Positions 31,825-50,140 of a stretch of DNA of 64,000 nucleotides are shown piece after piece (within the stretch, counting starts at the first letter, position 1; every line of letters starts with the position of its first letter). Origin of the DNA: Roseburia sp. 499 (GTDB lineage Bacteria; Bacillota; Clostridia; Lachnospirales; Lachnospiraceae); the NCBI RefSeq assembly GCF_001940225.2, contig NZ_CP135164.1, positions 248,001 to 312,000 of the forward strand. Direction: 5' to 3'. The notes beneath the pieces are model-generated. The model searched no databases, was not told the origin of the DNA, and saw nothing but the letters and a program-made list of their open reading frames with translations. Made by a program: the position numbers and the translations under genes.

Positions 31825-32217
31825 ATGGCTAATACAAAGTATTACGGAACAGGAAGAAGAAAAAAATCTATCGCCAGAGTATATTTAGTACCTGGAACCG
31901 GTAAGATTACAATCAATAAAAGAGATATTGATGAATATTTAGGATTAGAGACATTAAAGGTTATCGTTCGTCAGCCATTAGTTGCAACAGAAACAGCTGA
32001 TAAATTTGACGTTTTAGTAAACGTTAGAGGTGGCGGATACACAGGACAGGCAGGAGCAATCAGACATGGTATCTCCAGAGCTTTGTTACAGGTAGATAAC
32101 GAGTACAGACCAGTTCTTAAGGCTAACGGATTCTTAACCCGTGACCCAAGAATGAAAGAAAGAAAGAAATACGGTCTCAAAGCAGCACGTCGTGCTCCAC
32201 AGTTCTCAAAGAGATAA
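31825..32217 (+). CDS. rpsI: 30S ribosomal protein S9
   Basis: A 130-residue protein contacting P-site tRNA through its C-terminal tail. [40 protein letters not shown] and the terminal [20 protein letters not shown]...QFSKR tail are diagnostic. The final codons (TCAAAGAGATAA) coincide with the att core of the mobile element array. Integration therefore restores the coding sequence instead of breaking it. Confidence 0.98.
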
Positions 32218-32219
32218 TC
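32207..32219 (+). repeat. att core copy 1 (attL, rpsI 3' end)
   Basis: CAAAGAGATAATC overlaps the last codons and stop of rpsI. Identical copies lie at 42720 and 48621, with an IS-split copy at 45805/47541. Confidence 0.85.
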
Positions 32220-32355
32220 TTTCAAGAACGAAGATATCAAGAAAAGCCCATTTTACAAGGGTTACAGAAGTTGTGGAATGCTGTCAGATGTGCTGGAATT
32301 TACATCGAATGCAACACATATGCAGCAGGTATGCAACAAAGATATTGATATGTAT

Positions 32356-32395
32356 AGGACATTTTTCAGTAGAAATACTGGGGAATGTCCTTTTT
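32356..32395 (+). terminator. Terminator at the left end of the element
   Basis: AGGACATT pairs with AATGTCCT, with an inner CAGTA-GAAA-TACTG stem and a T5 tail. It probably replaces the native rpsI terminator. Confidence 0.88.
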
Positions 32396-32447
32396 GCATG
32401 TCATGAGCAAGATTGCTTTGCAATCTGCGAATGGCACCGATTGTTTT

Positions 32448-33503
32448 CTAAATTCTGTTAATTGCATCTACAAGCTCCTTTATATCAAAGTGGGTATATA
32501 CTTTCTCAGTCAGTGTCATAGCACCTGAGTGCCCTACAATCTTTTTGATTATAGTCTGGTTAATACCGGCTTCTGCTAACATTGAGATACATGTGTGTCT
32601 GCAGCAATGCGGTGTACGATTAATACCTATCTGTTCCATCAATGGCTTGAAATAGCTATCGTAGTAGTTTCGGTATTCAAAATGTTTTCCATCTTCTGTA
32701 TGAAGTAAATATTCACATTCAGGGCAGGATTCATACCAAGCCTTGTAATATGGCAGAACCTTGTCTGCTATTGGAACTTTTCTGATACCATTTTCTGTTT
32801 TACTACAGATAACATCAAAATACTGTTCATCAAGATGAACATTCTCTTTCTTCAAATCAAGCATTTCAGAGATACGGACTCCGCTATATAGGAGCATCAA
32901 TACTATCTGATAATATTTATCTTCCTTTTGTTCCCAGATAATATCAATTTCATTTTTCTCAAACTTGTTTCTATCGTATTTGTTAGGGTTACGATCCTTG
33001 TATTGAACAATATCAACGAAGCTTGAATAATCTTTGTTGCAAATATCATTTTTCAAAGCATAATCAAATAGCTGGTTAAACAGGACTTTGATTTTCTTGA
33101 GAGTAGGAAAATTCTTACCGCAGGTATCAATAACAGTCTGTAAATCAACTAATTTAATATCCTTGAAAACTTTGTTGTAAAGGGGTTCACAGGATTTATA
33201 GGATGCTGTGTATCCTTTTACATTAGATTCTGATATAGTAGGAAACTTACGCTTTGACCATTCTTCATAGACATCTGAAAAAGTCATCTTAGCAGCCTTG
33301 GTATCAAATGGATTATTATTGTAATCAGCAAGCATTTGCAAGCCTTCAGCTCTGGTAGCTGCATATCCAATTGTAATCATATCCTGAACCTGTTTGTCTT
33401 TTTCCGCATCATAGTGCCAGCCTACAGTCTTTCTCACTTGATAAGGTTTTCTTCTTTTGCCGGAAAGTTTTACAACGCTTCCGTATCCGTTGGGTAACTT
33501 CAT
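32448..33503 (-). CDS. int: Tyrosine recombinase (integrase)
   Basis: A 351-residue site-specific recombinase expected to integrate and excise the element at the rpsI att core. An N-terminal AP2-like arm-binding region (KLPNGYGSVVKLSGKRRKPYQVRK) is followed by a SAM-like core-binding domain at about 70-170. The catalytic domain has Arg in LLYSGVRISEMLDL, HCCRHTCISMLAEAG (H-x-x-R), GHSGAMTLTEKVYTHFD with the second His and the Tyr nucleophile. The start at 33503 follows AAAGGATGG. It is the first gene inside the left end, transcribed toward the att site, as is usual. Confidence 0.93.
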   Translation of the reverse strand: MKLPNGYGSVVKLSGKRRKPYQVRKTVGWHYDAEKDKQVQDMITIGYAATRAEGLQMLADYNNNPFDTKAAKMTFSDVYEEWSKRKFPTISESNVKGYTASYKSCEPLYNKVFKDIKLVDLQTVIDTCGKNFPTLKKIKVLFNQLFDYALKNDICNKDYSSFVDIVQYKDRNPNKYDRNKFEKNEIDIIWEQKEDKYYQIVLMLLYSGVRISEMLDLKKENVHLDEQYFDVICSKTENGIRKVPIADKVLPYYKAWYESCPECEYLLHTEDGKHFEYRNYYDSYFKPLMEQIGINRTPHCCRHTCISMLAEAGINQTIIKKIVGHSGAMTLTEKVYTHFDIKELVDAINRI

Positions 33504-33560
33504 AAGCACCATCCTTTCGCTATTTACTAGAAAGCTGATAGCAAACGGATAAAATGATTG

Positions 33561-33992
33561 TTATTCGTGGGTTACCTTTGTCACACTTGGGCGGATAGTC
33601 TTCCATATTTCGTAATTATCCTGTGTCTGGCTGCCATTATCAAGTAATTCTTTCATAGCCTGCCAGTCTTTAAGAAACTGAACAAGATTCTTATTGGAAA
33701 AGAATATGCCGGGCTCTCTGTCTAAATCCTTGATAGAAATGTCAAATGCTTCATCAATAGCAAATAGTAATGGTAGTACATCACCATCAGCCTCGATATC
33801 AAATTCCATCAATGAATTAACATTGACACCAAGTGCATCTGCAATCTTTCTAAGCTGTTCAGGCTTAGGAAGATTCTTTCCAAGCTCATACTTACGGATA
33901 GCGACTTCATGTATTCCGCAAGCTTCGCCTAGTTCTTTCTGGGTTAAACCACGAAAGGTTCGTATTAATTTAATCTTTTTACCTGTATTCAT
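33561..33992 (-). CDS. XRE-family element regulator
   Basis: A 143-residue Cro/C1-type repressor. The N-terminal domain reads IKLIRTFRGLTQKELGEACGIHEVAIRKYELGKNLPKPEQL; the C-terminal half is helical and acidic. The start at 33992 has AGGAGG ten bases upstream. It is divergent from the small DNA-binding gene across a region with a perfect promoter (34062-34090), so it likely represses excision/replication genes. It lies 57 bases from int on the same strand. Confidence 0.88.
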   Translation of the reverse strand: MNTGKKIKLIRTFRGLTQKELGEACGIHEVAIRKYELGKNLPKPEQLRKIADALGVNVNSLMEFDIEADGDVLPLLFAIDEAFDISIKDLDREPGIFFSNKNLVQFLKDWQAMKELLDNGSQTQDNYEIWKTIRPSVTKVTHE

Positions 33993-34061
33993 TGCTTCAA
34001 CCTCCTGTGATTGTAAATGTAACACACCAATATTTAATAGTCAACATTAAATTTTAAACTA

Positions 34062-34090
34062 TTGACAGAGCAAACAAAGGTCTGTATAAT
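34062..34090 (+). promoter_or_regulatory. Consensus promoter for element replication/transfer genes
   Basis: TTGACA, a 17-base spacer and TATAAT. It lies in the divergent gap between the XRE repressor and the rightward operon, with AT-rich half-sites TAGTCAA/TATTGAC beside it. Confidence 0.85.
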
Positions 34091-34142
34091 GCAAAACATA
34101 ACAGAGCAAGAAATGCTCTATATAAAAGAGGAGGTGGTAGAG

Positions 34143-34379
34143 ATGCCAGAAGTTATCTATCAGGGTGATTTACCAGCTTTTACAGGGAGAAATGTACCAA
34201 TAAAAGAGATTGCAAGTGCAATAGGGAAGGACGCACAGTATGTAAGGCTGGGAATACAACAAGGATTACTCAAATTTGGAACGGCAATAAAGGTAGGGAG
34301 CTCAAATGAGTTCAGCTATTATTGTCCGGATAAAAAAGTTTGGGAAGAAACAGGATATTTTAACAAAGAAGCAGTATAG
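34143..34379 (+). CDS. Small excisionase-like DNA-binding protein
   Basis: A 78-residue protein with a winged-helix/MerR-like segment: VPIKEIASAIGKDAQYVRLGIQ, then LKFGTAIKVGSSNEFSYYCPDK. Proteins of this kind in Firmicutes IMEs and ICEs act as excision directionality factors or replication regulators; the role here is inferred from position. The start at 34143 follows GAGGAGGTGG. A truncated homologue survives at 45515-45679 in a relic unit, showing that related elements used the same site. Confidence 0.75.
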   Translation: MPEVIYQGDLPAFTGRNVPIKEIASAIGKDAQYVRLGIQQGLLKFGTAIKVGSSNEFSYYCPDKKVWEETGYFNKEAV

Positions 34380-34393
34380 CAAGGAGGATGAAT

Positions 34394-35389
34394 ATGGTTG
34401 AAAAACAGAATGTTGAACTGAAACTTATCCATATGGAGGATGTGGTTTCAAAAGAGGTGGAATGGCTATGGTATCCATATATACCATACGGAAAGATAAC
34501 AATAATTGAAGGAGATCCGGGAGAAGGAAAGACAACTTTGGTTCTCAAGTTAGCGGCAGCTCTTAGCAGGGGCTTGCCGCTCCCATGTGATGATGATAAA
34601 GAATATGAACCTATTCATATCATTTACCAGACCGCAGAAGATGGAATTGAAGATACGATTAAGCCCAGATTAGAAAAGGCAGGAGCAGATTGTTCCATGA
34701 TTCGGGTTATTGATGAGACAGATAAGGAATTATCAATGACAGATGATAGGCTGGAGCAGGCAATAATCGATACTGGGGCAAGGTTAATCATTCTTGATCC
34801 GATTCAGGCATATATCGGAGCTACAGTTGATATGCACAGAGCAAATGAAATAAGACCGGTGCTAAAGCATCTTGGAATAATAGCAGAAAAGCATAATTGT
34901 GCAATTATTCTTATTGGTCATATGAATAAGGCATCCGGCAGCAAATCAACATACAGAGGACTTGGTTCTATTGATATACAGGCAACTGCCAGAAGTGTTC
35001 TGTTGGTGGCAAGGCTCCGTGATAAACCGAATATCAGGATAATGGCACATGATAAATCTTCATTAGCTCCAGCAGGGGATGCAATAGGATTTGAAATGAC
35101 AGAGGATAATGGAATGGTATGTATAGGACCATACGATATCACTATAGATGAGTTGTTATCCGGTAATGAAGGAAGAGGAAAAAAGAAGCTCGACATTGCG
35201 GAGAATTTTATCAAAGAATACTTTGGTGCCAATAAAGTGATTCCTTCAAATGAAATAATGATGGAAGCTGCAAAAAGGAGCATTAAGAGAAACACGCTTC
35301 TATCGGCAAAGAAAAAGCTGGGAATAACATCAGATAAAGAAAAGGCAGAAGATGGAACAATTTACTGGACTTGGGTAATGCCGGAGTAA
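34394..35389 (+). CDS. RepA-like AAA ATPase (replicative helicase type)
   Basis: A 331-residue RecA-fold ATPase. Walker A is EGDPGEGKTTLVLKLAA near residue 37, then IYQTAEDGIEDTIKPRL, Walker B RLIILDPIQAYIG and GHMNKASGSKSTYRGLGSIDI. The C-terminal 70 residues form a winged-helix-like segment (AENFIKEYFGANKVIPSNEI). It belongs to the AAA_25/RepA group common on mobilizable elements, where it may drive autonomous replication of the excised circle. The start at 34394 is six bases after AAGGAGG. Its stop is immediately followed by a long inverted repeat. Confidence 0.85.
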   Translation: MVEKQNVELKLIHMEDVVSKEVEWLWYPYIPYGKITIIEGDPGEGKTTLVLKLAAALSRGLPLPCDDDKEYEPIHIIYQTAEDGIEDTIKPRLEKAGADCSMIRVIDETDKELSMTDDRLEQAIIDTGARLIILDPIQAYIGATVDMHRANEIRPVLKHLGIIAEKHNCAIILIGHMNKASGSKSTYRGLGSIDIQATARSVLLVARLRDKPNIRIMAHDKSSLAPAGDAIGFEMTEDNGMVCIGPYDITIDELLSGNEGRGKKKLDIAENFIKEYFGANKVIPSNEIMMEAAKRSIKRNTLLSAKKKLGITSDKEKAEDGTIYWTWVMPE

Positions 35390-35485: not shown

Positions 35486-35514
35486 TGGTAATAGTAAGGA
35501 TAATATATAAAACC

Positions 35515-35591: not shown

Positions 35592-35647
35592 TGCACTGCT
35601 CCGATAGATTTAACAGATAAAAAGGTAGTACAGATAAGGAGATGCAA

Positions 35648-37084
35648 ATGGGAAATATTTCATATACAGCTCATGTGAGCAATAAGAAAAGTGCCATTAC
35701 ATCGAAATCTAAGCTTGCAGCTGTTGCAAAGCATAACCTGAGAAAATATAAATCATCAGATTATAGCAAAGACAACATTTGCATCATATATGGTACATCA
35801 AAACTGATTGATGATGTGAAAACAGTATATCATAAAGAATTCGATGAGGCATTAGAAGAATATAATAAAAAGCAGACACGACAAGATAGGAAAATTGAAG
35901 ATTATTTTGAACATGTGGCAGGTAAGGAACAGGATATGGCAGTTGAAATAATCATTCAGATAGGCGACAGAGAGTTCTGGAAGCAATTTGATGATATGAA
36001 GTCATATATGAAATTATCATATCAGATAATACTGGACGAGCTTAGAAAGAGGCTACCACAGTTTGTAGTTGCAAATGCTGTGGTTCATCTTGATGAGGAT
36101 AGTCCGCATATGCACATTGTGGGAGTTCCTGTGGCAGATGGATATAAGAAAGGTCTTTGCAAGCAGGTGTCAAAAAGAAAGGTATTCACTAAAGATGTGT
36201 TATCGGGAGTGCTGCAGGATGAACTTCGAGAGGTGGCAAATAAAGAAGTCGAGGACTGGTTTGGGGAACAGATAAAAGAAAAGTCGAAAGGTCGAAATCA
36301 CGATTTATCAGTTGCGGAGTATAAGGTGGCTCAGGAGACAAAGCATTTGACACAATTACAAAAGCAGGTGGAAGAGTCGGATATGGCAGTTAAGGCAAAT
36401 AAAGCCGTTGAAAAAGAATATACGGATAAAAAAGAAAAACTGGAGACTGATATTTCATATCTGGAAAGTATGTGGCGGATTACTAAGTCGCTATCAGAAA
36501 TGGATAGTAGAGAATCAAAACAGATATCAATGGAACTTGACGAAAAGAGGGAAAAACTTCAATCGATAAATGAAGAGCTGGCAAATGCTATTGAAAAAGC
36601 AGAAGATGCAGCGAAATTGCTTGATAGAATCAAGAATTTTGTATCGTCATTCAGATTATTTGCACCTACGATAGAAGAATATGCTAATCAGGTAGAAGCA
36701 GATAAGACAATAGAGGCAGGAAACTCATTCCGTGGAATATTGGATGAGCTGGGCAAACTGCTTGAGACATTCAAAGAACTGATAAAAGAAGGCTTATGCT
36801 GGTTTCCAAGGCTGATGAGATGGAAAACTTCTAAAGGAGAAGTGGCTCCGGTGTTTTTAGAGAAAAGTGATGGTTATTCATATTTGGTGTATGGATATAT
36901 GAATGTGGAGACTAAGGAATATTATTCTAAAGAGAGTATTCAATGGGAGATTACAGCAGGTAATCGTACTGGTACTGTTGAACAGATGGACGCTAATGTT
37001 GAAGCAATGGTGAGAGATTTGCAGGAGATATTGAGGATTGGGGAGGAACAGAAGAGATTGTGGGAGGTGTATGAGGGGAGATAA
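35648..37084 (+). CDS. mob: MobV-type relaxase (Mob/Pre)
   Basis: A 478-residue plasmid recombination/mobilization protein that should nick oriT and pilot the strand. The N-terminus GNISYTAHVSNKKS and the metal-binding motif AVVHLDEDSPHMHIVGVPV (H-x-D-E-x2-P-H-x-H) define the Mob_Pre family. Residues about 230-340 form a long coiled coil. The C-terminal region (about 400-478) is a compact domain of unknown role. The start at 35648 is seven bases after AAGGAG; an ATG at 35642 is too close. It is the last core gene of the mobilization module; cargo follows. Confidence 0.92.
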   Translation: MGNISYTAHVSNKKSAITSKSKLAAVAKHNLRKYKSSDYSKDNICIIYGTSKLIDDVKTVYHKEFDEALEEYNKKQTRQDRKIEDYFEHVAGKEQDMAVEIIIQIGDREFWKQFDDMKSYMKLSYQIILDELRKRLPQFVVANAVVHLDEDSPHMHIVGVPVADGYKKGLCKQVSKRKVFTKDVLSGVLQDELREVANKEVEDWFGEQIKEKSKGRNHDLSVAEYKVAQETKHLTQLQKQVEESDMAVKANKAVEKEYTDKKEKLETDISYLESMWRITKSLSEMDSRESKQISMELDEKREKLQSINEELANAIEKAEDAAKLLDRIKNFVSSFRLFAPTIEEYANQVEADKTIEAGNSFRGILDELGKLLETFKELIKEGLCWFPRLMRWKTSKGEVAPVFLEKSDGYSYLVYGYMNVETKEYYSKESIQWEITAGNRTGTVEQMDANVEAMVRDLQEILRIGEEQKRLWEVYEGR

Positions 37085-37154: not shown

Positions 37155-37368
37155 CGTTGCTATTAGTTGTTATATCGAATATAATATAATGTAAAAAAGG
37201 TAGAATATATGATAGCAAGTAAAAATATAATGAAATATTTCAAATGGAATGAAACAAAGCTCGTATTTGTGAAATAGACTAGACATAGTACTTATAGTTG
37301 GTAAAATTTTGGCAACACTGAATCGCACAGAAAAATCAAGAAATAATAGAAATATAAGGAGATATGAC

Positions 37369-38253
37369 ATGTTTGAAAAACTTATAAAAAAGATAAAAGA
37401 ATTTTCTACGAAAGATTTTAAGGAAGCGACCGAAGAAATAAGGAAATATATTGATAAAATATCAGAGAAAGATTTCAAAGAAATCGTAAAGCAGATAGGA
37501 ACTATACCTGAAAATATAGAACATGATTCGACAGAAGAAAAATTATATTCAAAGGCTTCAGATATAGTTTTAGCAAGATGTTTTAGAATGTTAGGATTGG
37601 CATCAAGAGCATTGGATGAAAGAGCAGATAGTGCTGATATATTAGCAGAAAGCATTTCAGGATATAAATATAGTTTGGTTGCAGATGCAAAATGTTTTAG
37701 ACTGAGTAGAACGGCAAAAAATCAGAAAGATTTTAAAGTTAGTAATTTGAGTGATTGGCGGGGATCTGAGAATGAGTACGCTGTTTTAGTAGCACCGTAC
37801 TTTCAATATCCACAATCTACTAGTCAAATATATTCAAAAGCTCTTGAAAATAATGTGTGTTTGTTGGCGTGGGAACACATATCAATTTTACTAGAAGAAA
37901 ATGTCAAAGAGACAGAATCATTATCTTTAGAATCTTTATGGAATGCTTCTCAAATGATAGCAAGGGATAAATCATTAAGTTTTGCGAATGCTAAATGTTG
38001 TTTTTTGCCTAAAATGGATGTTTATGTCGCAAAGAAAATTGGATTGTCGGAATCAAAATATAGAAGTATGTTAAATGATTATAAAAGATTAATTATGTAT
38101 AGAGGAAAAACAGAAATAGCTTACTGGACAGGTTGTATAGAAGAAATAAAGAAATATACCAAAGAAAAAGCAATAGAAGAATTGATTAAAGCAAAGAAAT
38201 TACAGGAAAAAATAAATGTCATTACACAGTATATTGATAAATTAAATAGGTAG
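37369..38253 (+). CDS. HindIII-type type II restriction endonuclease
   Basis: A 294-residue endonuclease clearly related to R.HindIII, which cuts A^AGCTT. Closely matching blocks include TEEKLYSKASDIVLAR, LVADAKCFRLSRTAKNQKD, FKVSNLSDWR and VLVAPYFQYPQSTSQI. The PD-(D/E)XK site is expected to use the aspartates in SADILAES and VADAK and the lysine of DAK, so specificity for AAGCTT is a reasonable inference. The start at 37369 follows AAGGAGATATGAC. The methyltransferase begins 12 bases after its stop, forming an R-M operon. No toxin-controlling C protein is seen. Confidence 0.9.
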   Translation: MFEKLIKKIKEFSTKDFKEATEEIRKYIDKISEKDFKEIVKQIGTIPENIEHDSTEEKLYSKASDIVLARCFRMLGLASRALDERADSADILAESISGYKYSLVADAKCFRLSRTAKNQKDFKVSNLSDWRGSENEYAVLVAPYFQYPQSTSQIYSKALENNVCLLAWEHISILLEENVKETESLSLESLWNASQMIARDKSLSFANAKCCFLPKMDVYVAKKIGLSESKYRSMLNDYKRLIMYRGKTEIAYWTGCIEEIKKYTKEKAIEELIKAKKLQEKINVITQYIDKLNR

Positions 38254-38264
38254 GTGAAATATTA

Positions 38265-39167
38265 ATGAGTAGAATTGAATTAGGTGATTCAATACAATTA
38301 ATAAAGAGTGTAGACACAGAATCAGTACATTTGATTTTATCTGATATTCCATATGGGATAAATTATGATAAGTGGGATGTTTTACATAACAACACAAATA
38401 GTGCGCTGTTAGGAAAAAGTCCAGCACAAGAAAAATGTGGAAGTATTTTTAAGACTAGAGGTAAACCATTGAATGGCTGGGCTCAATCAGATAAAAATAT
38501 TCCAGTTGAATATTATCAATGGTGTTCATCGTGGGCAGAAGATTGGTTAAGAGTATTGAAGCCAGGTGCAAGTTGTTTTATATTTGCAGGACGAAGGATG
38601 GCACATAGGTGTATTTGTGCAATGGAAGATGCTGGTTTTATTTTTAAAGATATGATTGCATGGGAAAAGGATTCAGCAGCATATAGAGCACAGAGAGTTA
38701 GCTGTGTTTTTGATAGAAGAAATGATGAACAGAATAGTTTGGCGTGGGAGGGATGGAAGATAGGAAATCTGAGACCACTATTTGAACCAATACTTTGGTT
38801 TATGAAACCTTATCCACAAGGAACTACTTTGACAGATAATATAACAAAATATGAAGTTGGTGCATTTAATGAAAATAAATTAAAAGAGTTAACTACCTTG
38901 AATGAGGGACTTGAAATATGCTCGAATATTCTAAAGGTAAAGACTCAAAAAACTGATAGAGGATTACATCCAACGCAAAAAGCAGTGGAATTAATGGAAA
39001 TACTAATTTCGTTAGTAACTAAAGAAGGACAGACTGTGTTAGATCCTTTTTGTGGGTGTGGAACGACATTAGTTGCTGCAAAAAAATTAAATAGAGAATA
39101 TATCGGATTTGAGATAAATGAAGAATATTATAACAATATATTGCTAAGGATGGATGATAATGAATAA
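38265..39167 (+). CDS. DNA methyltransferase of the HindIII-type system
   Basis: A 300-residue class beta amino-methyltransferase expected to protect AAGCTT by adenine N6 methylation. The catalytic motif IV near the N-terminus reads SDIPYGINYDKW (DIPY in place of DPPY). The target-recognition part is central. HPTQKAVELMEILI and the SAM-binding VLDPFCGCGTTLVAAKKL with YIGFEINEEYY close the protein, the beta order. It is directly behind the endonuclease gene and overlaps the small Cys-rich ORF by eight bases. Confidence 0.92.
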   Translation: MSRIELGDSIQLIKSVDTESVHLILSDIPYGINYDKWDVLHNNTNSALLGKSPAQEKCGSIFKTRGKPLNGWAQSDKNIPVEYYQWCSSWAEDWLRVLKPGASCFIFAGRRMAHRCICAMEDAGFIFKDMIAWEKDSAAYRAQRVSCVFDRRNDEQNSLAWEGWKIGNLRPLFEPILWFMKPYPQGTTLTDNITKYEVGAFNENKLKELTTLNEGLEICSNILKVKTQKTDRGLHPTQKAVELMEILISLVTKEGQTVLDPFCGCGTTLVAAKKLNREYIGFEINEEYYNNILLRMDDNE

Positions 39168-41430: not shown

Positions 41431-41530
41431 TTTCGGTAGCTATTGTATTTATATCTTTTTCACCTTTAAGCACTTCCAATACGAGTTTTGCTTTGAACTG
41501 AGCTGTAAAATTTCTTCTTGTACGAGACAT
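41183..41530 (-). CDS. IS3-family OrfA (helix-turn-helix)
   Basis: A 115-residue DNA-binding part of the transposase. TAQFKAKLVLEVLKGEKDINTIATENDIQPNLLRNWKKEFL is an HTH_Tnp_1 domain, followed by a leucine-zipper helix (EKAEYAKKVGQLTMQVDWLKKKSEEL). AAGGAAAAATT lies before the ATG. It overlaps the orfB reading frame by about 250 bases. Confidence 0.88.
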   Translation of the reverse strand: MSRTRRNFTAQFKAKLVLEVLKGEKDINTIATENDIQPNLLRNWKKEFLDNASVVFDDKREENIKEKLASERKEKAEYAKKVGQLTMQVDWLKKKSEELLGPDYESKFSKKPFEE

Positions 41531-42344: not shown

Positions 42345-42584
42345 TTACTGACACCAATCCTCATCCATAGCATCAGCCCAAGCTTGCAACTCGCAATCAA
42401 GAGCAAGTGCAGCATACATAAGCGGATTATCAATTGCAAGGTTATCAATAAGCCTTTGAGAGTTAGGTGTAGTATGCAGATTCTTTTCAGCTTCAGCACA
42501 GGATAAGAATAGAAGTGTATTATCAGCAAAAGCAATATCAATTCCGTTCTTGTATTGGTTGTAGTAAGCAAAATATATTTTCAT
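42345..42584 (-). CDS. Small DUF6061-like protein, 79 aa
   Basis: Begins MKIYFAYYNQYKNGIDIAFA and contains TPNSQRLIDNLAIDNPLMYAALAL, a pattern I associate with small DUF6061-type proteins of Lachnospiraceae mobile elements. The function is unknown. The start at 42584 follows AAAGGACTACT. It lies at the right end of the first element and is transcribed inward. An upstream-extended frame would cover the terminal repeats and is rejected. Confidence 0.6.
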   Translation of the reverse strand: MKIYFAYYNQYKNGIDIAFADNTLLFLSCAEAEKNLHTTPNSQRLIDNLAIDNPLMYAALALDCELQAWADAMDEDWCQ

Positions 42585-42678
42585 AGTAGTAGTCCTTTCT
42601 TTGTTAAAGTAATGAGTAGTTTTGGGAATGTGTGGGTAGTCAACCGCATACAACACATATGCAACAATTCCAACCACA

Positions 42679-42700
42679 AATCCCATATTGATGGGCTTTT
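42679..42700 (+). terminator. Right-end hairpin of first element
   Basis: AATCCCAT pairs with ATGGGCTT (mismatch at one position), followed by TT. An equivalent hairpin, CCCTTATTTCAGGG, precedes the att copy at 48621. Confidence 0.5.
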
Positions 42701-42719
42701 CAAAATATCAAAACGTTAC

Positions 42720-42732
42720 CAAAGAGATAATC
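42720..42732 (+). repeat. att core copy 2
   Basis: CAAAGAGATAATC, identical to the rpsI end. It is preceded by CAAAACGTTAC and followed by AATTTCACAATTCAGAACGTC, a context shared with the other downstream copies. Confidence 0.85.
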
Positions 42733-42778
42733 AATTTCACAATTCAGAACGTCTCAGGACGTTTCAGAAATGCTTATT

Positions 42779-42808
42779 ACATCCCAGGATTCTGTTCTGG
42801 GATGTTTT
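42779..42808 (+). terminator. Terminator next to att copy 2
   Basis: ACATCCCAG pairs with CTGGGATGT, then T5. It is preceded by the small palindrome ACGTCTCAGGACGT (42749-42762). The same pair recurs after the other att copies. Confidence 0.88.
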
Positions 42809-42825
42809 TGTATAAAAAAATAAAG

Positions 42826-42882: not shown

Positions 42883-43143
42883 ATGCCGGAAATATCATTA
42901 TTTTATGGAATACGAGTTACTATGTATTATGATGATTATAATCCACCGCATTTTCATGCAGAGTATAATGGGAATAAAGCAATTATTGAAATTGATACAG
43001 CCAGATGCATTAAAGGTGCTTTGCCATCAAGACAATTAAAGTTGATTTTAGCGTGGTGTGTTCTACATCAAGATGAGTTGATGCAGAATTGGGAATTATC
43101 AAAAGATGGAAAACCGTTAAATAGAATTAATCCACTTGTATAG
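42883..43143 (+). CDS. DUF4160 protein, copy 1
   Basis: An 86-residue protein with the DUF4160 core: FYGIRVTMYYDDYNPPHFHAEYNG and LKLILAWCVLHQDELMQNWELS. It precedes a DUF2442 gene, a pairing widely seen and suspected to be a toxin-antitoxin-like module; activity is unproven. ATG start after TTGGAGGTG. The copy at 48783 encodes the same 86 residues with 13 silent changes plus a start-codon change. It is the first gene of the unit behind att copy 2. Confidence 0.88.
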   Translation: MPEISLFYGIRVTMYYDDYNPPHFHAEYNGNKAIIEIDTARCIKGALPSRQLKLILAWCVLHQDELMQNWELSKDGKPLNRINPLV

Positions 43144-43156
43144 GGAGGCGATGTTT

Positions 43157-43432
43157 ATGTTTCCAAAGGTAGTTCAAGTAATACCAATGAAAGACTATTC
43201 AGTATTTGTGTACTTTGAGGATGGGAAAATAGTATGTTATGATATGAAAAAAATGTTAGATAAAGAAGTTTTCAAACCGTTGAAAGACATTTCAGTATTT
43301 GTTGATGCATGTACGGTTATGAATGATACGTTAGCTTGGGATATAAGTGGAAATAGAGATGCTGGTCGATGCATTGATATTGATCCTGATACGTTGTATG
43401 AATTGCCTTACTGCAAGGAACAAATAGCTTAG
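43157..43432 (+). CDS. DUF2442 protein, copy 1
   Basis: A 91-residue protein: MFPKVVQVIPMKDYSVFVYFEDGKIVCYDM ... DTLAWDISGNRDAGRCIDIDPDTLY, the DUF2442 fold. The start at 43157 has GGGAGG eight bases before; an ATG at 43151 is too close. It lies 13 bases after the DUF4160 stop and is thus co-transcribed. It differs from the second copy at three residues (K/N, G/S, Q/R). Proteins of this type are proposed antitoxin or DNA-binding partners. Confidence 0.85.
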   Translation: MFPKVVQVIPMKDYSVFVYFEDGKIVCYDMKKMLDKEVFKPLKDISVFVDACTVMNDTLAWDISGNRDAGRCIDIDPDTLYELPYCKEQIA

Positions 43433-43623
43433 ATGTAAACTTATACACTTTGGATATGTTTTCGAGACAAGTTTTTGTTATGTAATAAGTAGTTGGAACG
43501 TAAGAACAGAGATAAGGCTTATGAGGTCATAAAGCAGCAGGAACGCAACCGATAAAGTGATTGCATAATCTGTGAAATTTGATATAATTAACAGCAATGT
43601 TTTAAATATTGGAGGACGAAGAA

Positions 43624-44109
43624 ATGTACGATTGTGGATTTACAAAAGGGAATAATTGGTTTAGATATCGAACAGGTGCTTTTATTATTAAGGATAATAA
43701 AATTCTTTTTGTAAAAAGTAAAATTGGTGGATACTATTATGTGCTTGGTGGTGGTGTGCATTTAGGTGAAACATCTGAGAAATGTATTGAACGAGAAGTT
43801 TTTGAAGAAACGGGAATAAAGGCACAAGTAGAGCGTCTTGCGGTTGTATGTGAAAATTTCTTTAAAGGAATTGGAGGTACGATAGACGGTTTAGATTGTC
43901 ATACAATGGAATTCTATTACATTATGAAAATGCAAGAAGATAATGTAAATACGGGAGATGGTATGACTGATGACGGCGAGGTATTAGTATGGTTGCCTAT
44001 TGAAGAAATTCCGAACAATGAAATAAAACCATCATTTATAAAGGATTATATAGATGAAATTATTACTGGAGAAAATGTATTACATATCATATGGGAAAAA
44101 GATAGATAG
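43624..44109 (+). CDS. NUDIX hydrolase
   Basis: A 161-residue hydrolase of nucleoside-diphosphate-linked substrates. The Nudix box is GGGVHLGETSEKCIEREVFEETGI, matching Gx5Ex7REUxEExGU. Upstream VKSKIGGYYYVLGG and downstream FYYIMKM, LVWLPIEEIP are typical. The substrate is not predictable. The start at 43624 follows TTGGAGG. It sits alone between the DUF2442 gene and a dead insertion sequence, with its own terminator. A 190-base gap before it holds nothing else recognisable. Confidence 0.9.
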   Translation: MYDCGFTKGNNWFRYRTGAFIIKDNKILFVKSKIGGYYYVLGGGVHLGETSEKCIEREVFEETGIKAQVERLAVVCENFFKGIGGTIDGLDCHTMEFYYIMKMQEDNVNTGDGMTDDGEVLVWLPIEEIPNNEIKPSFIKDYIDEIITGENVLHIIWEKDR

Positions 44110-44248: not shown

Positions 44249-45514
44249 CCTTAATCCGTGAAACTTGTTAACCCAGTTTATGGCTTGTTCTTGATAAATA
44301 CAAGGCGTAACACGGTTCTATTTCCAGTTTCTGTTTTCCACCAATTGGTGAAGAAAAAATATAATAAATATGTACATTTCCTATGATTTCAGCGCCTCAT
44401 ATAGTAAAATATAAGTATCAATATACGAGGTGGATGCTTATGAAAAAACTTGTAATCGAATTCTCCAATGAAAGATTAATTACTCCCAGTGGATTATCTC
44501 TTGTGGGACAGATGCTTGGCAAAAGCAATTTCATTAAAAAAGTGTAATAACATGAAAGTTGATGGCAAACGATCCCAGAGTCAAATCAAAAATGGAGATA
44601 TTCTTCTTTCTTACATCGGACTTCTTTGTCAGGGCAAGACTTCACATGACGCCATTAATGAGATGTCTGATGATCCTGAGTATTACAAGCTCGCTCTTGG
44701 CATCACAAGAGCGATTCCGTCTGCTGAGACATTACGTCAGCGCATGGATGAAATAGGGTCTTCGTTGAGAGAAGAAATTCTAAATGCAAATGTTGCCATG
44801 TTTAATACCTTCCATGTTCAGCCTTCGGCATTAGAGTCCGGGTTAGTTCCTTTGGATCTTCATGGAAAGATGTAACGTATACAGATTCCGAAGGAGAATC
44901 CAAAACCATTACCATGCGTATTGTATATGAGGTGATTGAACGCACAACTGATAAAAACGGGCAGTTCCTTCTGATTCCCGATATCGAGTGCAATACCATA
45001 TGGACCAATCTTGGATGGAGCGATGATGATATCATAAAAGGTTATCATGCTCACGGAGAATGTGAACAATTCCACAGTGAAATCAAGACGGATATGGATG
45101 TTGAAAGACTTCCATCAGGAAAATTTGATACAAATGAGCTGGTCCTTGAATTAACTGTGCTTGCATATAATATTTTGCGACTAATAGGTCAGGAGTCGCT
45201 GAAAAGCAAGCGGGCGCCTAAAAAAAACATCCTGTCAAAAGAAGACGTATCAGAACCGTTATCGGGAATCTGATTCAAATCGCCGGACATGTAACAACTC
45301 ATGGGCGACGGATTGCCTTGGCAATTGGTTGCAGTAATGTATGGCGTCATGCATTTATGGATGTATATAATCGTTTTGCTTTGGCCTAAAAACATAAATC
45401 AGAAATAGGCTTGTTAGGGTGTGCAATTTTTGCGTTTATAATCTGAAAACGAAAATAAAATACGCAACAAACTGGAATTAAGTATTTAGATTCGTTGTAA
45501 AGTAATGCACAAAT
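44249..45514 (+). mobile_element. Decayed IS1380-family copy
   Basis: Starts with the left end CCTTAATCCGTGAAACTTG, identical to the intact copy at 45811, and runs collinear with it. It has an internal 399-base deletion and has lost the right terminal repeat: at 45514 it joins directly to the remnant of an excisionase-like gene. Confidence 0.88.
44440..45389 (+). pseudogene. Defective IS1380-family transposase
   Basis: The same protein as the intact copy (46005) but with two lesions. An extra A in the run after TTCATT shifts the frame at about codon 32. A deletion corresponding to 46435-46833 of the intact copy removes 133 codons, including the central DDE catalytic part (RMDAGNDAAENLG). The junction GGATCTT|CATGG lies at a shared TCTT, a four-base microhomology. 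Confidence 0.9.
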
Positions 45515-45679
45515 GCTAAAGCAATGGGAAAAGATGCTCAATATGTTCGTATTGGAATACAACAAGGAATTCTGAAGTTTGGAACAGCGATGAAAATCGG
45601 TGCTTCGAGAGAATTCAGCTATTATTGCCCAGATAAGAAAGTATGGGAAGAAACCGGATATTTTAATAACGATGTATGA
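45515..45679 (+). pseudogene. Remnant of excisionase-like gene from another element
   Basis: 54 codons homologous to the C-terminal two thirds of the protein at 34143: AKAMGKDAQYVRIGIQQG, then LKFGTAMKIGASREFSYYC and KKVWEETGYFN. The 5' part was removed by the neighbouring insertion sequence. About 130 bases of non-coding DNA separate it from the split att site. It is evidence for a second, related element integrated at rpsI. Confidence 0.85.
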
Positions 45680-45810
45680 AAATTCTTTTGACATGTTTTG
45701 TTAATGATAACAGTAAAATGGTTAGTATGCAATAAAATAATTTGAAGGAAACAAATAAATGAAATTGGCAGATAGGTTTTGAAATAAGGCTATCAAAACG
45801 TTAACAAAGA

Positions 45811-47540
45811 CCTTAATCCGTGAAACTTGATAACCTTATTTCGGGCGTATACCCGATAAATACTGGGTGTAACACGGTTTCATTTCTAGTTTTTGTTTTC
45901 ACCCAATGGGTGAAGATAAAAACATATGACTTTCTCATATTTCCTCTGTGTTTTTAGCACCTCATATAGTAAAATATAAGTATCAATATATGAGGTGGAT
46001 ATTTATGAAAAAACTCGTAATCGAATTTTCCAATGAAAGACTAATTACTCCCAGCGGATTATCTCTTGTGGGACAGATGCTTGGCAAAAGCAGCTTCATT
46101 AAAAAGTGCAATAACATGAAGGTTGATGGCAAACGTTCCCAGAGCCAAATCAAAAACGGAGATATTCTTCTTTCTTATATCGGACTTCTTTGTCAGGGCA
46201 AGACTTCTTATGATGCTATCAATGAGATGTCTGATGATCCTGAGTATTACAAGCTTGCTCTTGGTATCACAAGGGCGATTCCATCTGCTGAGACCTTACG
46301 TCAGCGTATGGATGATATAGGGTCTTCATTGAGGGAAGAAATCCTAAATGCAAATGTTGCCATGTTTCATACCTTCCATGTTCAGCCTTCCGCATTAGAA
46401 TCCGGGTTAGTTCCTTTGGATCTTGACGTCACTCCTATGGATAATTCAAAAACACATAAGGAAGGAGTTGCACACACATACAAAGGATTTGATGGTTATG
46501 CACCAATGATGGCATACATTGGCACAGAAGGCTTTCTTGCAAATACGGAGCTACGGGAAGGAAGTCAGCATTGCCAGTGCAATACACCCGCATTTTTAAA
46601 GCAGACACTTCGGCTTGGACATCAACTGACAGACAAGCAACTGTTGGTTCGTATGGACGCAGGGAATGATGCTGCTGAAAACTTAGGCATTCTAATCGAA
46701 GACGGTTCCTGGTTTATTGTAAAAAGAAATCTTCGAAGAGGTGAATCCAAAGAAGATTGGATTGCCAAAGTAAAGGAATGCTGTAAGGACATCCGTAATC
46801 CTCGTGATGGAAAAACTGTTTACATAGGTTCTTCGTGGAAAGATGTAGCGTATACAGATTCCGAAGGAGAATCAAAAACCATTACCATGCGCATTGTATA
46901 TGAGGTGATTGAACGAACAACCGATAAAAACGGACAGTTCCTTCTGGTTCCGGATATCGAGTGCAATACGATATGGACCAATCTCGGCTGGAGCGATGAT
47001 GATATCATAAATGGCTATCATGCTCACGGCGAATGCGAACAGTTTCACAGTGAAATCAAGACGGATATGGATGTTGAAAGACTTCCATCCGGCAAATTTG
47101 ATACAAATGAGCTGGTCCTTGAATTAACTGTGCTTGCGTATAATATTTTGCGATTAATAGGTCAGGAGTCGTTAAAAAGCAGGCGAGCTCCTAAAACAAA
47201 ACACCCTGTTAAAAGAAGACGTATCAGAACCGTGATAGGGAATCTGATTCAAATCGCCGGACATGTAACAACTCATGGACGACGGATTGTCTTGGCAATT
47301 GGTTGCAGTAATGTATGGCGTCATGCATTTATGGATGTTTATAAGCGTTTTGCTCTGGCCTAAGAATACAAAACAGAAAAAGGCTTGTTAAGGTGCGTCA
47401 TTTTTGCACCTTATAAGCTGCAAATAGATATAAATCTCGCAACAAACAGGAATTGTGTACTAAAATTCGGTGTAAAGCAATGAATAACATTGATTCTGGG
47501 CAGTTCCTGTAAAAAAACAACTAAGTTTCACGGATTCAGG
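45811..47540 (+). mobile_element. Intact IS1380-family element inside an att core
   Basis: 1,730 bases bounded by CCTTAATCCGTGAAACTTG and, inverted, CCTGAATCCGTGAAACTTA. It is flanked by AAAGA direct repeats (45806-45810 and 47541-47545). Removing it and one repeat restores AACAAAGAGATAATC, the att core with its usual flank. The target duplication could be read as four or five bases. Confidence 0.92.
46005..47363 (+). CDS. IS1380-family transposase
   Basis: A 452-residue DDE transposase. The N-terminal LVIEFSNERLITPSGLSLVGQM and the GDILLSYIGLLCQGK block match the family. The catalytic region has PLDLDVTPMDNSKTHKEG (first D), LLVRMDAGNDAAEN (second D), and HGECEQFHSEIKTDMDVERLPSG with the final Glu and the conserved K-D/E-ERLPSG block. 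The ATG at 46005 follows TGAGGTGG; an upstream in-frame extension is not needed. The coding sequence looks undamaged, so the element may be active. Confidence 0.93.
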   Translation: MKKLVIEFSNERLITPSGLSLVGQMLGKSSFIKKCNNMKVDGKRSQSQIKNGDILLSYIGLLCQGKTSYDAINEMSDDPEYYKLALGITRAIPSAETLRQRMDDIGSSLREEILNANVAMFHTFHVQPSALESGLVPLDLDVTPMDNSKTHKEGVAHTYKGFDGYAPMMAYIGTEGFLANTELREGSQHCQCNTPAFLKQTLRLGHQLTDKQLLVRMDAGNDAAENLGILIEDGSWFIVKRNLRRGESKEDWIAKVKECCKDIRNPRDGKTVYIGSSWKDVAYTDSEGESKTITMRIVYEVIERTTDKNGQFLLVPDIECNTIWTNLGWSDDDIINGYHAHGECEQFHSEIKTDMDVERLPSGKFDTNELVLELTVLAYNILRLIGQESLKSRRAPKTKHPVKRRRIRTVIGNLIQIAGHVTTHGRRIVLAIGCSNVWRHAFMDVYKRFALA

Positions 47541-47552
47541 AAAGAGATAATC
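47541..47552 (+). repeat. att core copy 3, split by IS1380 element
   Basis: AAAGAGATAATC followed by AATTTCACAATCC; the left part AACAAAGA lies at 45803-45810 on the other side of the insertion sequence. Confidence 0.85.
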
Positions 47553-47598
47553 AATTTCACAATCCAAAGCGTCTCAGGACGTTTCAGAACAGTATATT

Positions 47599-47632
47599 AC
47601 ACTCCAGGACATTTGTCTTGGGGTGTTTTTTG
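47599..47632 (+). terminator. Terminator next to att copy 3
   Basis: ACACTCCAGGAC pairs with GTCTTGGGGTGT (wobbles), then T6. It follows the same ACGTC-type palindrome context as at copies 2 and 4. Confidence 0.85.
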
Positions 47633-47735
47633 TGAGAACTGTGGTAAAATGTATTTGTATGAAATAATTGAATATTTGTATATTTGGATAGTAATCATAA
47701 TATAGATAGTACATCTACATGAAAGGAGCATAGTT

Positions 47736-47966
47736 ATGACAACCATAAGTACAAAGAGTGGAAAAGTGATAAAATTTGTATCTAGTGAAGAAGAGAAAAC
47801 TACGCTTACAGTATCTGATAGTGAAATGGATGCTCGTGCTACAGAGGCTGTTAAAGCAGCTATAAACAAATCAAAAATATGTAAAAAGCCAGTAGCGGGA
47901 TATGACAAAGAAAAAAGAGTGGCATATATCGAATATGCAAATGGTGAAAGAAAATATGCAAAGTAA
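47736..47966 (+). CDS. Small partner of zeta-like kinase
   Basis: A 76-residue acidic-to-basic protein: MTTISTKSGKVIKFVSSEEEK, then ATEAVKAAINKSKICKKPVAG and DKEKRVAYIEYANGERKYA. No domain is recognised. It overlaps the kinase start by 11 bases and precedes it, the position of an antitoxin, which is the reason for suggesting that role. AAAGGAGCATAGTT provides a good ribosome site. Confidence 0.7.
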   Translation: MTTISTKSGKVIKFVSSEEEKTTLTVSDSEMDARATEAVKAAINKSKICKKPVAGYDKEKRVAYIEYANGERKYAK

Positions 47967-48507
47967 AAAGCCAATGATTCCTGTGTTAGCTGGTCCGAAT
48001 GGTTCGGGTAAAAGAACAATTACAACGTTTTTTGACAAAGTTGGTAAATACACGAATGCGGATGATATTGTTGCAGCAACTGGAATGGATAACATGGAAG
48101 CAGCCATATTAGTAGATAAAATGAGATATGAGTCTATTGATAAAAAAGAAGATTTTACTTTTGAAACGGTATTATCATCTCAGTACAAATTAAACATATT
48201 AAGAAAGGCAAAGGAAGAAGGCTATTTTATTAAGTGTGTATTTGTATTAACTATTGACCCTAAAATCAATATCACTAGAATAGAATCACGAGTGGCATCG
48301 GGCGGTCATAGTGTTGAAAGTTCAAAAGTGATTGAAAGATTTTACAAATCAATCAATAATATTAAAGAACTGCTCGAAATATGTGATATTATGCATGTTT
48401 ATGATAATACAGAAACGCCTAAAAGAATTATTCGTAAGCATAAAGATGATATATCGATTTATCCAAATGAGTATTGGGGAGAAAAGGATATATTAGAACT
48501 ATTTTAA
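47956..48507 (+). CDS. Zeta-toxin-like P-loop kinase
   Basis: A 183-residue kinase of the zeta toxin/UDP-N-acetylglucosamine kinase group. Walker A is AGPNGSGKRTITTFF; the usual Ser of GKS/T is replaced by Arg, followed by Thr. NADDIVAATGMDNMEAA, the lid region EDFTFETVLSSQYKL, CVFVLTIDPKINITRIESRV with the sugar-nucleotide region GGHSVESSKVIERFYKS, and VYDNTETPKRIIRKH complete the fold. An upstream ATG at 47941 is also possible, but the 47956 start has GGTGAAAG. If toxic, it would phosphorylate cell-wall precursors; the P-loop change makes activity uncertain. Confidence 0.82.
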   Translation: MQSKKPMIPVLAGPNGSGKRTITTFFDKVGKYTNADDIVAATGMDNMEAAILVDKMRYESIDKKEDFTFETVLSSQYKLNILRKAKEEGYFIKCVFVLTIDPKINITRIESRVASGGHSVESSKVIERFYKSINNIKELLEICDIMHVYDNTETPKRIIRKHKDDISIYPNEYWGEKDILELF

Positions 48508-48620
48508 TAGTTAGTGGTAGCGATAGGAAGTTGTGGGCGGTCCTCAACATAAAACACATATGCAACACCACCAACCCCAAATCCCTTATTTCAGGGCTTT
48601 TCTAGCTCTCAAAACATTAA

Positions 48621-48633
48621 CAAAGAGATAATC
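48621..48633 (+). repeat. att core copy 4
   Basis: CAAAGAGATAATC, identical to the rpsI end, with flanks AAAACATTAA and AATTTTACAATCCAGAACGTC. Confidence 0.85.
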
Positions 48634-48679
48634 AATTTTACAATCCAGAACGTCTCAGGACGTTTCAGAAATGCTTATT

Positions 48680-48711
48680 ACATCCCAGGACTTCGTTCTG
48701 GGATGTTTTTG
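48680..48711 (+). terminator. Terminator next to att copy 4
   Basis: ACATCCCAG pairs with CTGGGATGT, then T5, matching the one at 42779. Confidence 0.88.
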
Positions 48712-48726
48712 TATAAAAAAATAAAA

Positions 48727-48741: not shown

Positions 48742-48782
48742 TATATAAGCAAGTCAAAATGATTATTTGGAGGTGAAACAGC

Positions 48783-49043
48783 TTGCCAGAAATATCATTA
48801 TTTTATGGAATTCGAGTTACTATGTATTATGATGATTATAATCCACCTCATTTCCATGCAGAGTACAATGGAAATAAAGCAATTATTGAAATTGATACGG
48901 CTCGATGCATTAAGGGTGCTTTGCCATCAAGACAACTAAAGTTGATTTTAGCGTGGTGTGTTCTGCATCAAGATGAGTTGATGCAGAATTGGGAATTATC
49001 TAAAGATGGAAAACCGTTAAATAGAATTAATCCACTTGTATAG
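48783..49043 (+). CDS. DUF4160 protein, copy 2 (TTG start)
   Basis: 86 residues identical to the protein at 42883, but encoded with 13 synonymous differences and a TTG start in place of ATG. The Shine-Dalgarno region TTGGAGGTGAAACA is conserved, so TTG is used at the same position. The weaker start could lower its level relative to copy 1. It is followed by DUF2442 copy 2 after 12 bases. Confidence 0.88.
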   Translation: MPEISLFYGIRVTMYYDDYNPPHFHAEYNGNKAIIEIDTARCIKGALPSRQLKLILAWCVLHQDELMQNWELSKDGKPLNRINPLV

Positions 49044-49055
49044 GAGGTGACGTTT

Positions 49056-49331
49056 ATGTTTCCGAAAGTGGTTCAAGTAATACCAATGAAAGACTATTCA
49101 GTATTTGTGTACTTTGAAGATGGAAAAATAGTATGTTATGATATGAAAAACATGTTAGATAAAGAAGTTTTCAAACCATTGAAAGACATTTCTGTATTTG
49201 TTGATGCATGTACGGTTATGAATGATACGTTAGCATGGGATATAAGTGGAAATAGAGATGCTAGTCGATGCATTGATATTGATCCTGATACGTTGTATGA
49301 ATTGCCTTATTGCAAGGAACGAATAGCTTAG
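49056..49331 (+). CDS. DUF2442 protein, copy 2
   Basis: 91 residues, three different from copy 1 (Asn for Lys in YDMKNML, Ser for Gly in NRDASRC, Arg for Gln in CKERIA). AGGAGGTGACGTTT precedes the ATG. It is co-transcribed with DUF4160 copy 2. A terminator resembling the att-linked ones follows. Confidence 0.85.
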   Translation: MFPKVVQVIPMKDYSVFVYFEDGKIVCYDMKNMLDKEVFKPLKDISVFVDACTVMNDTLAWDISGNRDASRCIDIDPDTLYELPYCKERIA

Positions 49332-49371
49332 ATGTAAACTTATACACTATGCTTTTTAAACAAGTGTATTA

Positions 49372-49404
49372 CGCTCCAGGACAATTTGTTCTGGAGTGTT
49401 TTTT
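49372..49404 (+). terminator. Terminator after DUF2442 copy 2
   Basis: CGCTCCAGGA pairs with TTCTGGAGTG, then T6. It resembles the att-linked terminators, but no att core precedes it. It may mark a deleted unit boundary. Confidence 0.85.
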
Positions 49405-49467
49405 CGATTGATAACTGTGGTAAAATCAATTTTAATAAAAATATTTATATGGAGAGAAGGATTAATT

Positions 49468-49971
49468 ATGATAGCACCAAGAAAGATAAAACATATAGCA
49501 GAGAAAATGGAAAGAGAAAATTTGGAGTTTCGTACATTTTTGAAATGCAATGCAGATGAAAAAATATTAGATGAGCAATTTGCGAGATTACACAAGGAAT
49601 TATTTGCAGACTATGATTGCAGTAGATGCAGAAATTGTTGTAAGAGCTATTACGGAAGTATTCCTTTAGCTGATATAAAGAAAGATGCATCGCATTTGAA
49701 TATGTCTTCAGATGAATTTATTGAATTATATCTTTCTGAAAAAGATAGCGAAGGCAATTTTAAAACAAAAAATAAACCATGTGATTTTTTGCAAGAGGAC
49801 GGAAGCTGCGGATTAGGTGACTGCAAACCAGATAATTGTAAAAAATATCCATATACAAACCAGCCAGAACGTTTACATAGTTTATATAGTATGTTGGAGG
49901 CTGTTGAGGTTTGTCCGGTTGCATTTGAAATATTTGAAAGATTAAAGATAGAATATGGATTCAAAAAATAA
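49468..49971 (+). CDS. YkgJ-family cysteine-cluster protein
   Basis: A 167-residue protein with the conserved cysteine pattern of the YkgJ/Fliy family, which binds an iron-sulfur or zinc center: DCSRCRNCCKSYYG, PCDFLQEDGSCGLGDCKPDNCKKYP and EVCPVAFEIF. The biochemical role is unknown. The start at 49468 follows GGAGAGAAGG. It sits in the last relic unit of the array and may be cargo. Confidence 0.85.
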   Translation: MIAPRKIKHIAEKMERENLEFRTFLKCNADEKILDEQFARLHKELFADYDCSRCRNCCKSYYGSIPLADIKKDASHLNMSSDEFIELYLSEKDSEGNFKTKNKPCDFLQEDGSCGLGDCKPDNCKKYPYTNQPERLHSLYSMLEAVEVCPVAFEIFERLKIEYGFKK

Positions 49972-50064
49972 GGATAATATGAACTGGTATACATTATTTA
50001 GATATTGCGGATTCATGGAAAATAATGGATGAAAACAGCATTAATCAGTAGTGGAAAGATGTTA

Positions 50065-50140
50065 TGAGGCGTGGTGGGCATCCCTACGCATATAACACGT
50101 ATGCAACACCACCAACCACAAAAATATGAAAACCAGAGAT
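50065..50140 (+). repeat. Subterminal repeat at distal end of the array
   Basis: GGCGTGGTGGGCAT ... ACACGTATGCAACACCACC AACCAC matches the segments ending each unit (42634-42680 and 48528-48575). It is followed by AACCAGAGATAGGAG, a possible degenerate att core. This marks the probable right boundary of the accreted region. Confidence 0.6.

Follow-up and report, generated by a model that had tools for sequence, protein, structure and literature searches.

A mobilizable element and small one-sided cassettes at the 3′ end of rpsI in Roseburia sp. 499 and related Lachnospiraceae

A 64,000-nucleotide stretch of the Roseburia sp. 499 genome (NZ_CP135164.1, positions 248,001 to 312,000 of the forward strand; this whole stretch is called the window, and positions are counted from its first letter) carries a row of integrated units directly behind the gene rpsI. 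An integrative mobilizable element (IME) with a tyrosine integrase is integrated at the rpsI 3′ end (32.2–42.7 kb), and the units beyond it are probably one-sided cassettes, similar to cis-mobilizable elements (CIMEs), that were carried by rpsI elements via site-specific recombination at the rpsI 3′ end. A cassette opens with a core that includes the rpsI stop codon and with a terminator; one or two small genes follow, often of toxin-antitoxin or abortive infection type, and then a right end with two arms 11 bp apart and another core. Most cassettes have arms at the right end only, and their left end looks like an empty rpsI site. Cassettes of this anatomy are linked to rpsI and recur in different species and at different array positions; similarity between species starts at the core, and cassette identity is discordant with that of the species. 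This suggests that small cassettes without an rpsI-type integrase of their own, several of them toxin-antitoxin-like, travel between species via the integration system of larger elements.

The 13-bp core (CAAAGAGATAATC) was found exactly at 32207, 42720 and 48621, as reported in the first-pass annotation of this DNA, with a one-mismatch copy at 47540. The TAA of core 1 (32207–32219, plus strand) is the stop codon of rpsI (31825–32217, plus strand; an open reading frame (ORF) with relatives of 86–95% in the genus), whose 3′ end is the integration site. With up to two mismatches allowed, 12 core matches were present in the window compared to 3.56 expected, and 12 were reached in none of 100 shuffles. 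The palindrome ACGTCTCAGGACGT follows three cores, exactly at 42749 and 48650 and with one mismatch at 47569, each time within a palindrome and terminator block (42749–42810, 47569–47634 and 48650–48712, all plus strand), again as first described. After each internal core there is a terminator block, rather than an arm-bearing integrase-side left end. An extended 24-nt site (up to three mismatches) occurred at three places in the 3.38-Mb genome, all within the array, and a reversed-pattern control for this site had no match in the whole 3.38-Mb genome. Chance repeats were ruled out by the core shuffles, the genome count of the extended site and the strand bias of right-end hits given below.

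The claim of a fourth core copy split by an insertion sequence (IS) was confirmed. An IS with a DDE_Tnp_1_4 transposase fills 45811–47540, and its near-identical terminal repeats together with the 5-bp direct repeat AAAGA at both flanks (45806–45810 and 47541–47545) place it inside a core copy (core 3, 45805–47552, plus strand). The similar subterminal sequence said to precede each downstream copy is indeed present at 42720 and 48621; the right end of the split copy is reduced to approximately its last 40 nt (read by eye). Copies 42720 and 48621 also share, beyond core and palindrome, a 94–95% identical stretch with a DUF4160/DUF2442 gene pair. Beyond core 4 (48621–48633), a terminator-like block lacking a recognisable core lies at 49354 (49354–49405, plus strand; 79%), and a decayed right end at 50071–50122 (plus strand; 81%; weak profile match, E = 0.008) is the probable outer boundary of an array that reaches ~50.1 kb, further than initially noted.

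We read rpsI and up to 20 kb downstream in 105 relatives (three of 108 fetched stretches had no rpsI, and many were short), all genome collections holding one genome per species. Two right-end profiles were built from 28 seeds (22 type A and 6 type B; a 29th seed, G309, was dropped as the core was not found there). The type A right end consists of GGGTAACTnACACGTAACTnAC, a spacer and the core, and type B, the type found in the window, has AACACATATGCAACA-type arms and a longer spacer. On 106 rpsI loci and 80 DUF4160 loci (186 in all) the profiles gave 66 plus-strand and 0 minus-strand matches at E ≤ 0.05; the matches end in the core because the profiles were built that way, which is not so for their strand and position. 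A scan of 29 genomes of the genus yielded 13 type A sites (E < 1e-6) in 9 genomes. Nine were located on the rpsI contig, all downstream and on the same strand, and the other four were on non-rpsI contigs of genomes in which rpsI either was not found or lies on a contig ending within 2 kb. The window genome had type B sites at 42640, 48540 and, weakly, 50084, with none outside the array. Across 328 genomes of the family, 19 type A and 35 type B sites were detected at E ≤ 1e-6, three of them common to both, and 32 of the 33 distinct sites sharing a contig with rpsI lie downstream on the same strand, ~0.7–40 kb off (hand tally). The tie of the repeats to rpsI, for which a refutation test had been set beforehand, held both in these counts and in the confinement of the 24-nt site to the array. 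At one locus (L335, genome G118) three right-end matches, one of them weak, lie within 8 kb of rpsI, and the locus also has a DUF4258 fragment and a DUF4160/DUF2442 pair that is more distantly related (61 and 56%).

A total of 46 core-to-core units were listed at a limit of E = 1e-4, excluding matches at +64 of rpsI (G348, G368) and one at L157 (E = 5e-4); L196 and L103 were left out of the unit and identity counts because L054 and L244 already represent the genome or species concerned. An rpsI-type integrase is present in seven units and absent from 39, of which 34 are smaller than 3.5 kb, in a unit set that is enriched for the DUF4160 query and with an integrase profile that detects only relatives of the window integrase. 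Loci chosen by rpsI alone (27 units at 18 loci, window included) contained 15 small units without an rpsI-type integrase, 10 of which carry toxin-antitoxin or Abi-like genes: the DUF4160 pair in three (one broken by a transposase-like ORF), zeta-like genes in two (one a remnant), and Abi_2, HigA-like, CptIN, ToxN-like and DUF4258/YgiT genes in one each. The remaining five hold a GNAT gene, a methionyl-tRNA-synthetase-like gene (by eye), a Fic gene, an alpha/beta hydrolase gene and, in one unit, nothing that could be assigned. The methionyl-tRNA-synthetase-like gene lies in a 2.9-kb unit at rpsI of G366 (L101, 393–3301) and may be a second copy of the resistance type. The DUF4160 pair stands directly behind rpsI in G025, G043 and G382 (with a weak right end in G382 and an interrupted DUF4160 frame in G043 and G382), and the same position is taken by DUF4258 and a YgiT-type protein in G148, a HigA-like gene in G021, a HigBA-like pair in G022, where a right end was not detected, and a CptIN type III toxin in G024 (167 bits, cut-off 90).

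The two ends of these units differ. An arm pair at the left end was detected in 2/34 small units, 6/7 integrase units and 3/7 further integrase loci, and a terminator lay no more than 110 nt from the core in 29/34, 3/7 and 4/7, respectively. Left-end arms are thus a mark of integrase elements, and a nearby terminator is common to cassettes and integrase units. Four loci from different genera (L087, L094, L099, L110) have an identical 100 nt right behind rpsI, as if rpsI terminators had been exchanged with the following unit. The nearest relative (G006), taken as an empty site, has a terminator that by eye resembles cassette left ends, and it may not be a clean ancestor.

The recurrence of one cassette was followed through its DUF4160 gene. 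A scan of one genome per species returned 196 loci with a DUF4160 relative, of which the best 80 were kept. Among the 37 loci with at least 90% identity, 22 had rpsI within 3 kb upstream, 5 had a core and terminator only, 5 were near a contig edge and 5 had neither, compared to 1, 1, 2 and 39, respectively, of the 43 loci below 90% (the core-with-terminator test was positive in 30 of 4000 random stretches). In 23 of the best 80 species records the cassette, ~0.8 kb in size, is no more than 3 kb away from rpsI; it is also free-standing at rpsI of other species and measures ~740–935 nt in the complete single-pair units that recur in many species. The two window pairs have 96.1 and 94.2% identity to that of an uncultured Lachnospiraceae (L189, RUG10817), where the pair begins 164 nt behind rpsI and rpsI has only 76.0% identity. 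Similarly, L054 and L222 have 97.8% identity in the cassette compared to 76.9% in rpsI, and cassette identity exceeded rpsI identity in 243 of 324 pairs. Similarity between species rises at the core; 25 of 1902 matches (≥300 nt, ≥80%; mostly rpsI and its upstream side) have a core near each of their two limits, a number that falls to 20 once the duplicate record L196 is removed. In Roseburia faecis (L191, around 7829–7840) a DUF4160 cassette follows the apparent last rpsI codons, with a second core 3 nt further on; a full rpsI was not found in that flank. A phage or plasmid vehicle was considered and rejected, with best DUF4160 identities of 80% in viral contigs, 87.2% in plasmids and <60% in phages, although this family may be poorly represented in those collections.

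The validated toxin-antitoxin system DhiTA of Dickeya dadantii has the domain pair DUF4160/DUF2442 (PMC8198452). As in DhiTA, the window has both domains (Pfam), with the putative toxin gene first. Unlike DhiTA, the window DUF4160 protein scores below the NCBIfam DhiT cut-off (82.4 bits compared to 100) and the DUF2442 protein had no NCBIfam match. Judged from these protein comparisons, the pair is related to DhiTA, with the DUF4160 protein below the membership cut-off.

We propose that cassettes are carried by cis mobilization. An integrase element would insert at rpsI, upstream of a cassette. If the two ends of the element recombined with each other, the element would depart alone and leave the cassette directly behind rpsI; if its left end recombined with the right end of the cassette, element and cassette would depart, transfer and integrate jointly. 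A single armed end would therefore be enough for a cassette to be carried, and its terminator would close rpsI whichever unit comes next. Such a mechanism, in which the integrase would act on these ends, would account for the asymmetry of the ends, for cassettes behind rpsI without a nearby rpsI-type integrase and for spread with an element that has a Mob_Pre relaxase; selection may favour the toxin-antitoxin cargo.

Several observations weigh against this interpretation. Cis mobilization was deduced, and neither excision nor transfer was observed. Five of the 37 close DUF4160 relatives have neither rpsI nor a core with terminator, and cassette and rpsI identity are weakly positively correlated (Mantel rho 0.19; reached in 10 of 999 permutations). 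The sole exception among the same-contig sites, a type B right end in G383 (L318, 12975–13063) that has both core and terminator, lies 1.9 Mb from rpsI. Another 18 sites of the family scan lie on contigs that lack a full rpsI; 12 of these have <6 kb of contig upstream and the contig of G133 starts with an rpsI fragment, but for right ends in G320, G382 and G102 no rpsI is present in >10 kb of upstream sequence. The integrase screen of the units covered the rpsI type, and a 2.5-kb unit of L222 holds a serine-recombinase-like ORF (by eye). Terminators also occur near the core in integrase-bearing left ends and are thus not special to cassettes, and the arm test is crude, as it detects the right-end pair in 18/34 small units and left-end arms in only 3/7 further integrase loci.

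The observations were also weighed against three other explanations. Each cassette could excise as its own circle and be reinserted by an rpsI integrase acting in trans, in the manner of integron cassettes, which we regard as unlikely. Clean units without an rpsI-type integrase do occur at several positions, and cassettes lie directly behind rpsI in loci where the integrase family of the window was not found downstream within the 20 kb read (e.g., G025), both of which favour such a route. However, arm repeats are absent from the left end in 32/34 small units, and without them the two cassette ends do not form a normal left and right pair. No attC-like folded site was found either: RNAalifold predicted 0 pairs on 31 type A right ends, and the lack of a conserved fold speaks against a site of the integron type.

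Slightly less probable still is classical accretion, with complete rpsI elements inserted in tandem and then decayed, which would make each unit the remainder of a large element of its own (CIMEs strictly speaking). Longer integrase-bearing units exist at rpsI, decay is visible in IS insertions and lost right ends, and a remnant of an element small ORF is present in the 42.7–47.5-kb unit and also near the right end in G184. On the other side, one small cassette recurs in many species, which independent decay would not yield, and the internal cores have no integrase-side left end behind them. Simple tandem integration of whole elements would give such left ends, and for this reason whole-element accretion was rejected as the main account. 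The first-pass annotation was right in outline about site-specific accretion at rpsI with one complete-looking element next to the gene, and defence and toxin-like cargo was found as it had claimed (SIR2, restriction-modification, zeta-like kinase and DUF4160/DUF2442 genes). Its view that every downstream unit is a large-element relic was not supported as stated, since the remnant was seen only in the 42.7–47.5-kb unit, the 47.5–48.6-kb unit is a clean cassette and the DUF4160 unit is free-standing elsewhere; the layering remains, mainly of units other than big-element relics. Ordinary homologous recombination might have duplicated the rpsI flank, as the two 94–95% identical blocks 5.9 kb apart in the window could suggest. 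This explanation is largely refuted and very improbable, since species that are similar from the core onward have only 76% identity in rpsI and different cargoes lie between ends of one kind.

Carriage of one-sided cassettes by rpsI elements thus remains our preferred explanation. Going beyond it, we tentatively suggest, as a possibility that may well not hold, that the 3′ end of rpsI serves Lachnospiraceae and related bacteria as a platform for cassettes, one that can be likened to an integron and is built differently, in which terminator-led toxin-antitoxin and defence cassettes (~0.6–1.1 kb) with one armed attachment end are exchanged between genera and ordered by rpsI integrases entering and leaving, with rpsI re-terminated at each exchange. 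No description of terminator-led cassettes of this kind was found in the available parts of the open-access literature. If correct, this would reveal a way in which toxin-antitoxin and defence modules of very small size pass between gut bacteria and become established next to an essential gene without bringing an integrase, and would give a simple build rule for hitch-hikers, namely one armed end and a terminator. The right-end profile makes cassettes searchable in any genome, single ones included.

In the element adjoining rpsI, the arm repeats of the left end, spaced 11 nt (32306–32338, plus strand), are followed by the tyrosine integrase gene, which reads towards rpsI (32448–33512, minus strand; Pfam Phage_integrase, 1e-21). 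Nine genomes have relatives of this integrase (48–90% identity) no more than 2 kb from rpsI. An HTH_3 regulator (33561–34025, minus strand) precedes a small ORF (34062–34379, plus strand) that may be an excisionase from its position and whose relatives adjoin related integrases; a Pfam scan of it gave no match. An AAA_25 ATPase (34388–35389) and a Mob_Pre relaxase (35642–37084), both on the plus strand and assigned by Pfam, are followed by a HindIII-type restriction enzyme and DNA methylase (37309–39167, plus strand) and by a SIR2-type defence gene (PADLOC PDC-S25; 39425–42308, plus strand). The latter is interrupted by an insertion with transposase genes, and its two pieces (39425–40312 and 41706–42308) match consecutive parts of one profile. 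At the right end lie a DUF6061 ORF (42345–42686, minus strand), likewise found near right ends in four other loci, and the type B right end with core 2 (42638–42732, plus strand; core at 42720–42732). No coupling or channel genes were found among the element ORFs scanned with Pfam, the small ORFs having been only partly scanned. rpsI is a recognised target of IMEs (PMC4701971, PMC7563491, PMC5090054).

Behind the element, copy 1 of the DUF4160/DUF2442 pair (42883–43432, plus strand) is followed by a decayed region (43.6–45.8 kb) that contains a NUDIX protein gene (43609–44109, plus strand), an IS remnant (44249–45512, plus strand), the remnant of the element small ORF (45514–45672, plus strand; 75% to 34211–34369) and the tail of a right end. 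The IS remnant is a decayed second copy, with an inner deletion, of the intact-looking IS at 45811–47540, the two copies lying 1.5 kb apart. A right end in G184 has, within 1.7 kb of it, both a NUDIX protein of 98% identity and a match of 82% to the element small ORF. The next unit is a clean 1.08-kb cassette (47.5–48.6 kb) consisting of core 3, a 76-aa ORF and zeta-toxin-like kinase (47736–48507, plus strand) and a type B right end with core 4 (48540–48633, plus strand). In G036 the ORF and kinase are likewise paired (81 and 80%) and come immediately after rpsI. Flanked by cores and ending in a type B right end (47541–48633), this unit is att-flanked in the manner of a CIME. Copy 2 of the DUF4160/DUF2442 pair (48783–49331, plus strand), 94.8% identical to copy 1, and a CxxCxxCC (zinc- or iron-chelating) ORF (49396–49971, plus strand) lie beyond core 4. 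A large-element remnant was seen in only one window unit (42.7–47.5 kb), and none was recognised in the small cassettes with listed ORFs.

Integron cassettes are small gene units held in series at a fixed site, and toxin-antitoxin cargo is known in some. The rpsI cassettes likewise stand consecutively at one fixed site, but their right end has no conserved fold (type A), a terminator heads most units and the partner is the phage-type integrase of a mobilizable element. Like the Xer (pdif) modules of Acinetobacter (PMC7399989), which have no recombinase of their own, they are flanked by recombination sites, and most are without an rpsI-type integrase; unlike pdif modules, they use the 3′ end of rpsI, with directly oriented sites. 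The window element resembles IMESag-rpsI of Streptococcus agalactiae (PMC5090054), also a mobilizable element at rpsI with an HTH_3 regulator and a Mob_Pre relaxase. IMESag-rpsI has RepA_N, Rep_trans and a RelBE pair, whereas the window element has AAA_25 and restriction-modification and SIR2 cargo.

The closest parallel is with the CIMEs in composite islands of Streptococcus salivarius, for which rpsI is among the sites (PMC7563491). That survey describes CIMEs as decayed elements in tandem with integrative and conjugative elements or IMEs, sized 1.2–13 kb with genes or 130–220 bp without and lying farthest from the target gene, and its authors state that single ones are undetectable by their method. 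In both cases tandem units at the rpsI 3′ end keep attachment sites (those of S. salivarius have no recombination or transfer genes, and 39/46 here have no rpsI-type integrase), and an integrase element adjoins the gene with the other units farther away, as in the window. Unlike the S. salivarius CIMEs, the present units are often only 0.6–1.1 kb, several stand alone behind rpsI and they are conserved as units across species, with left ends mostly free of arms and toxin-antitoxin-like cargo common.

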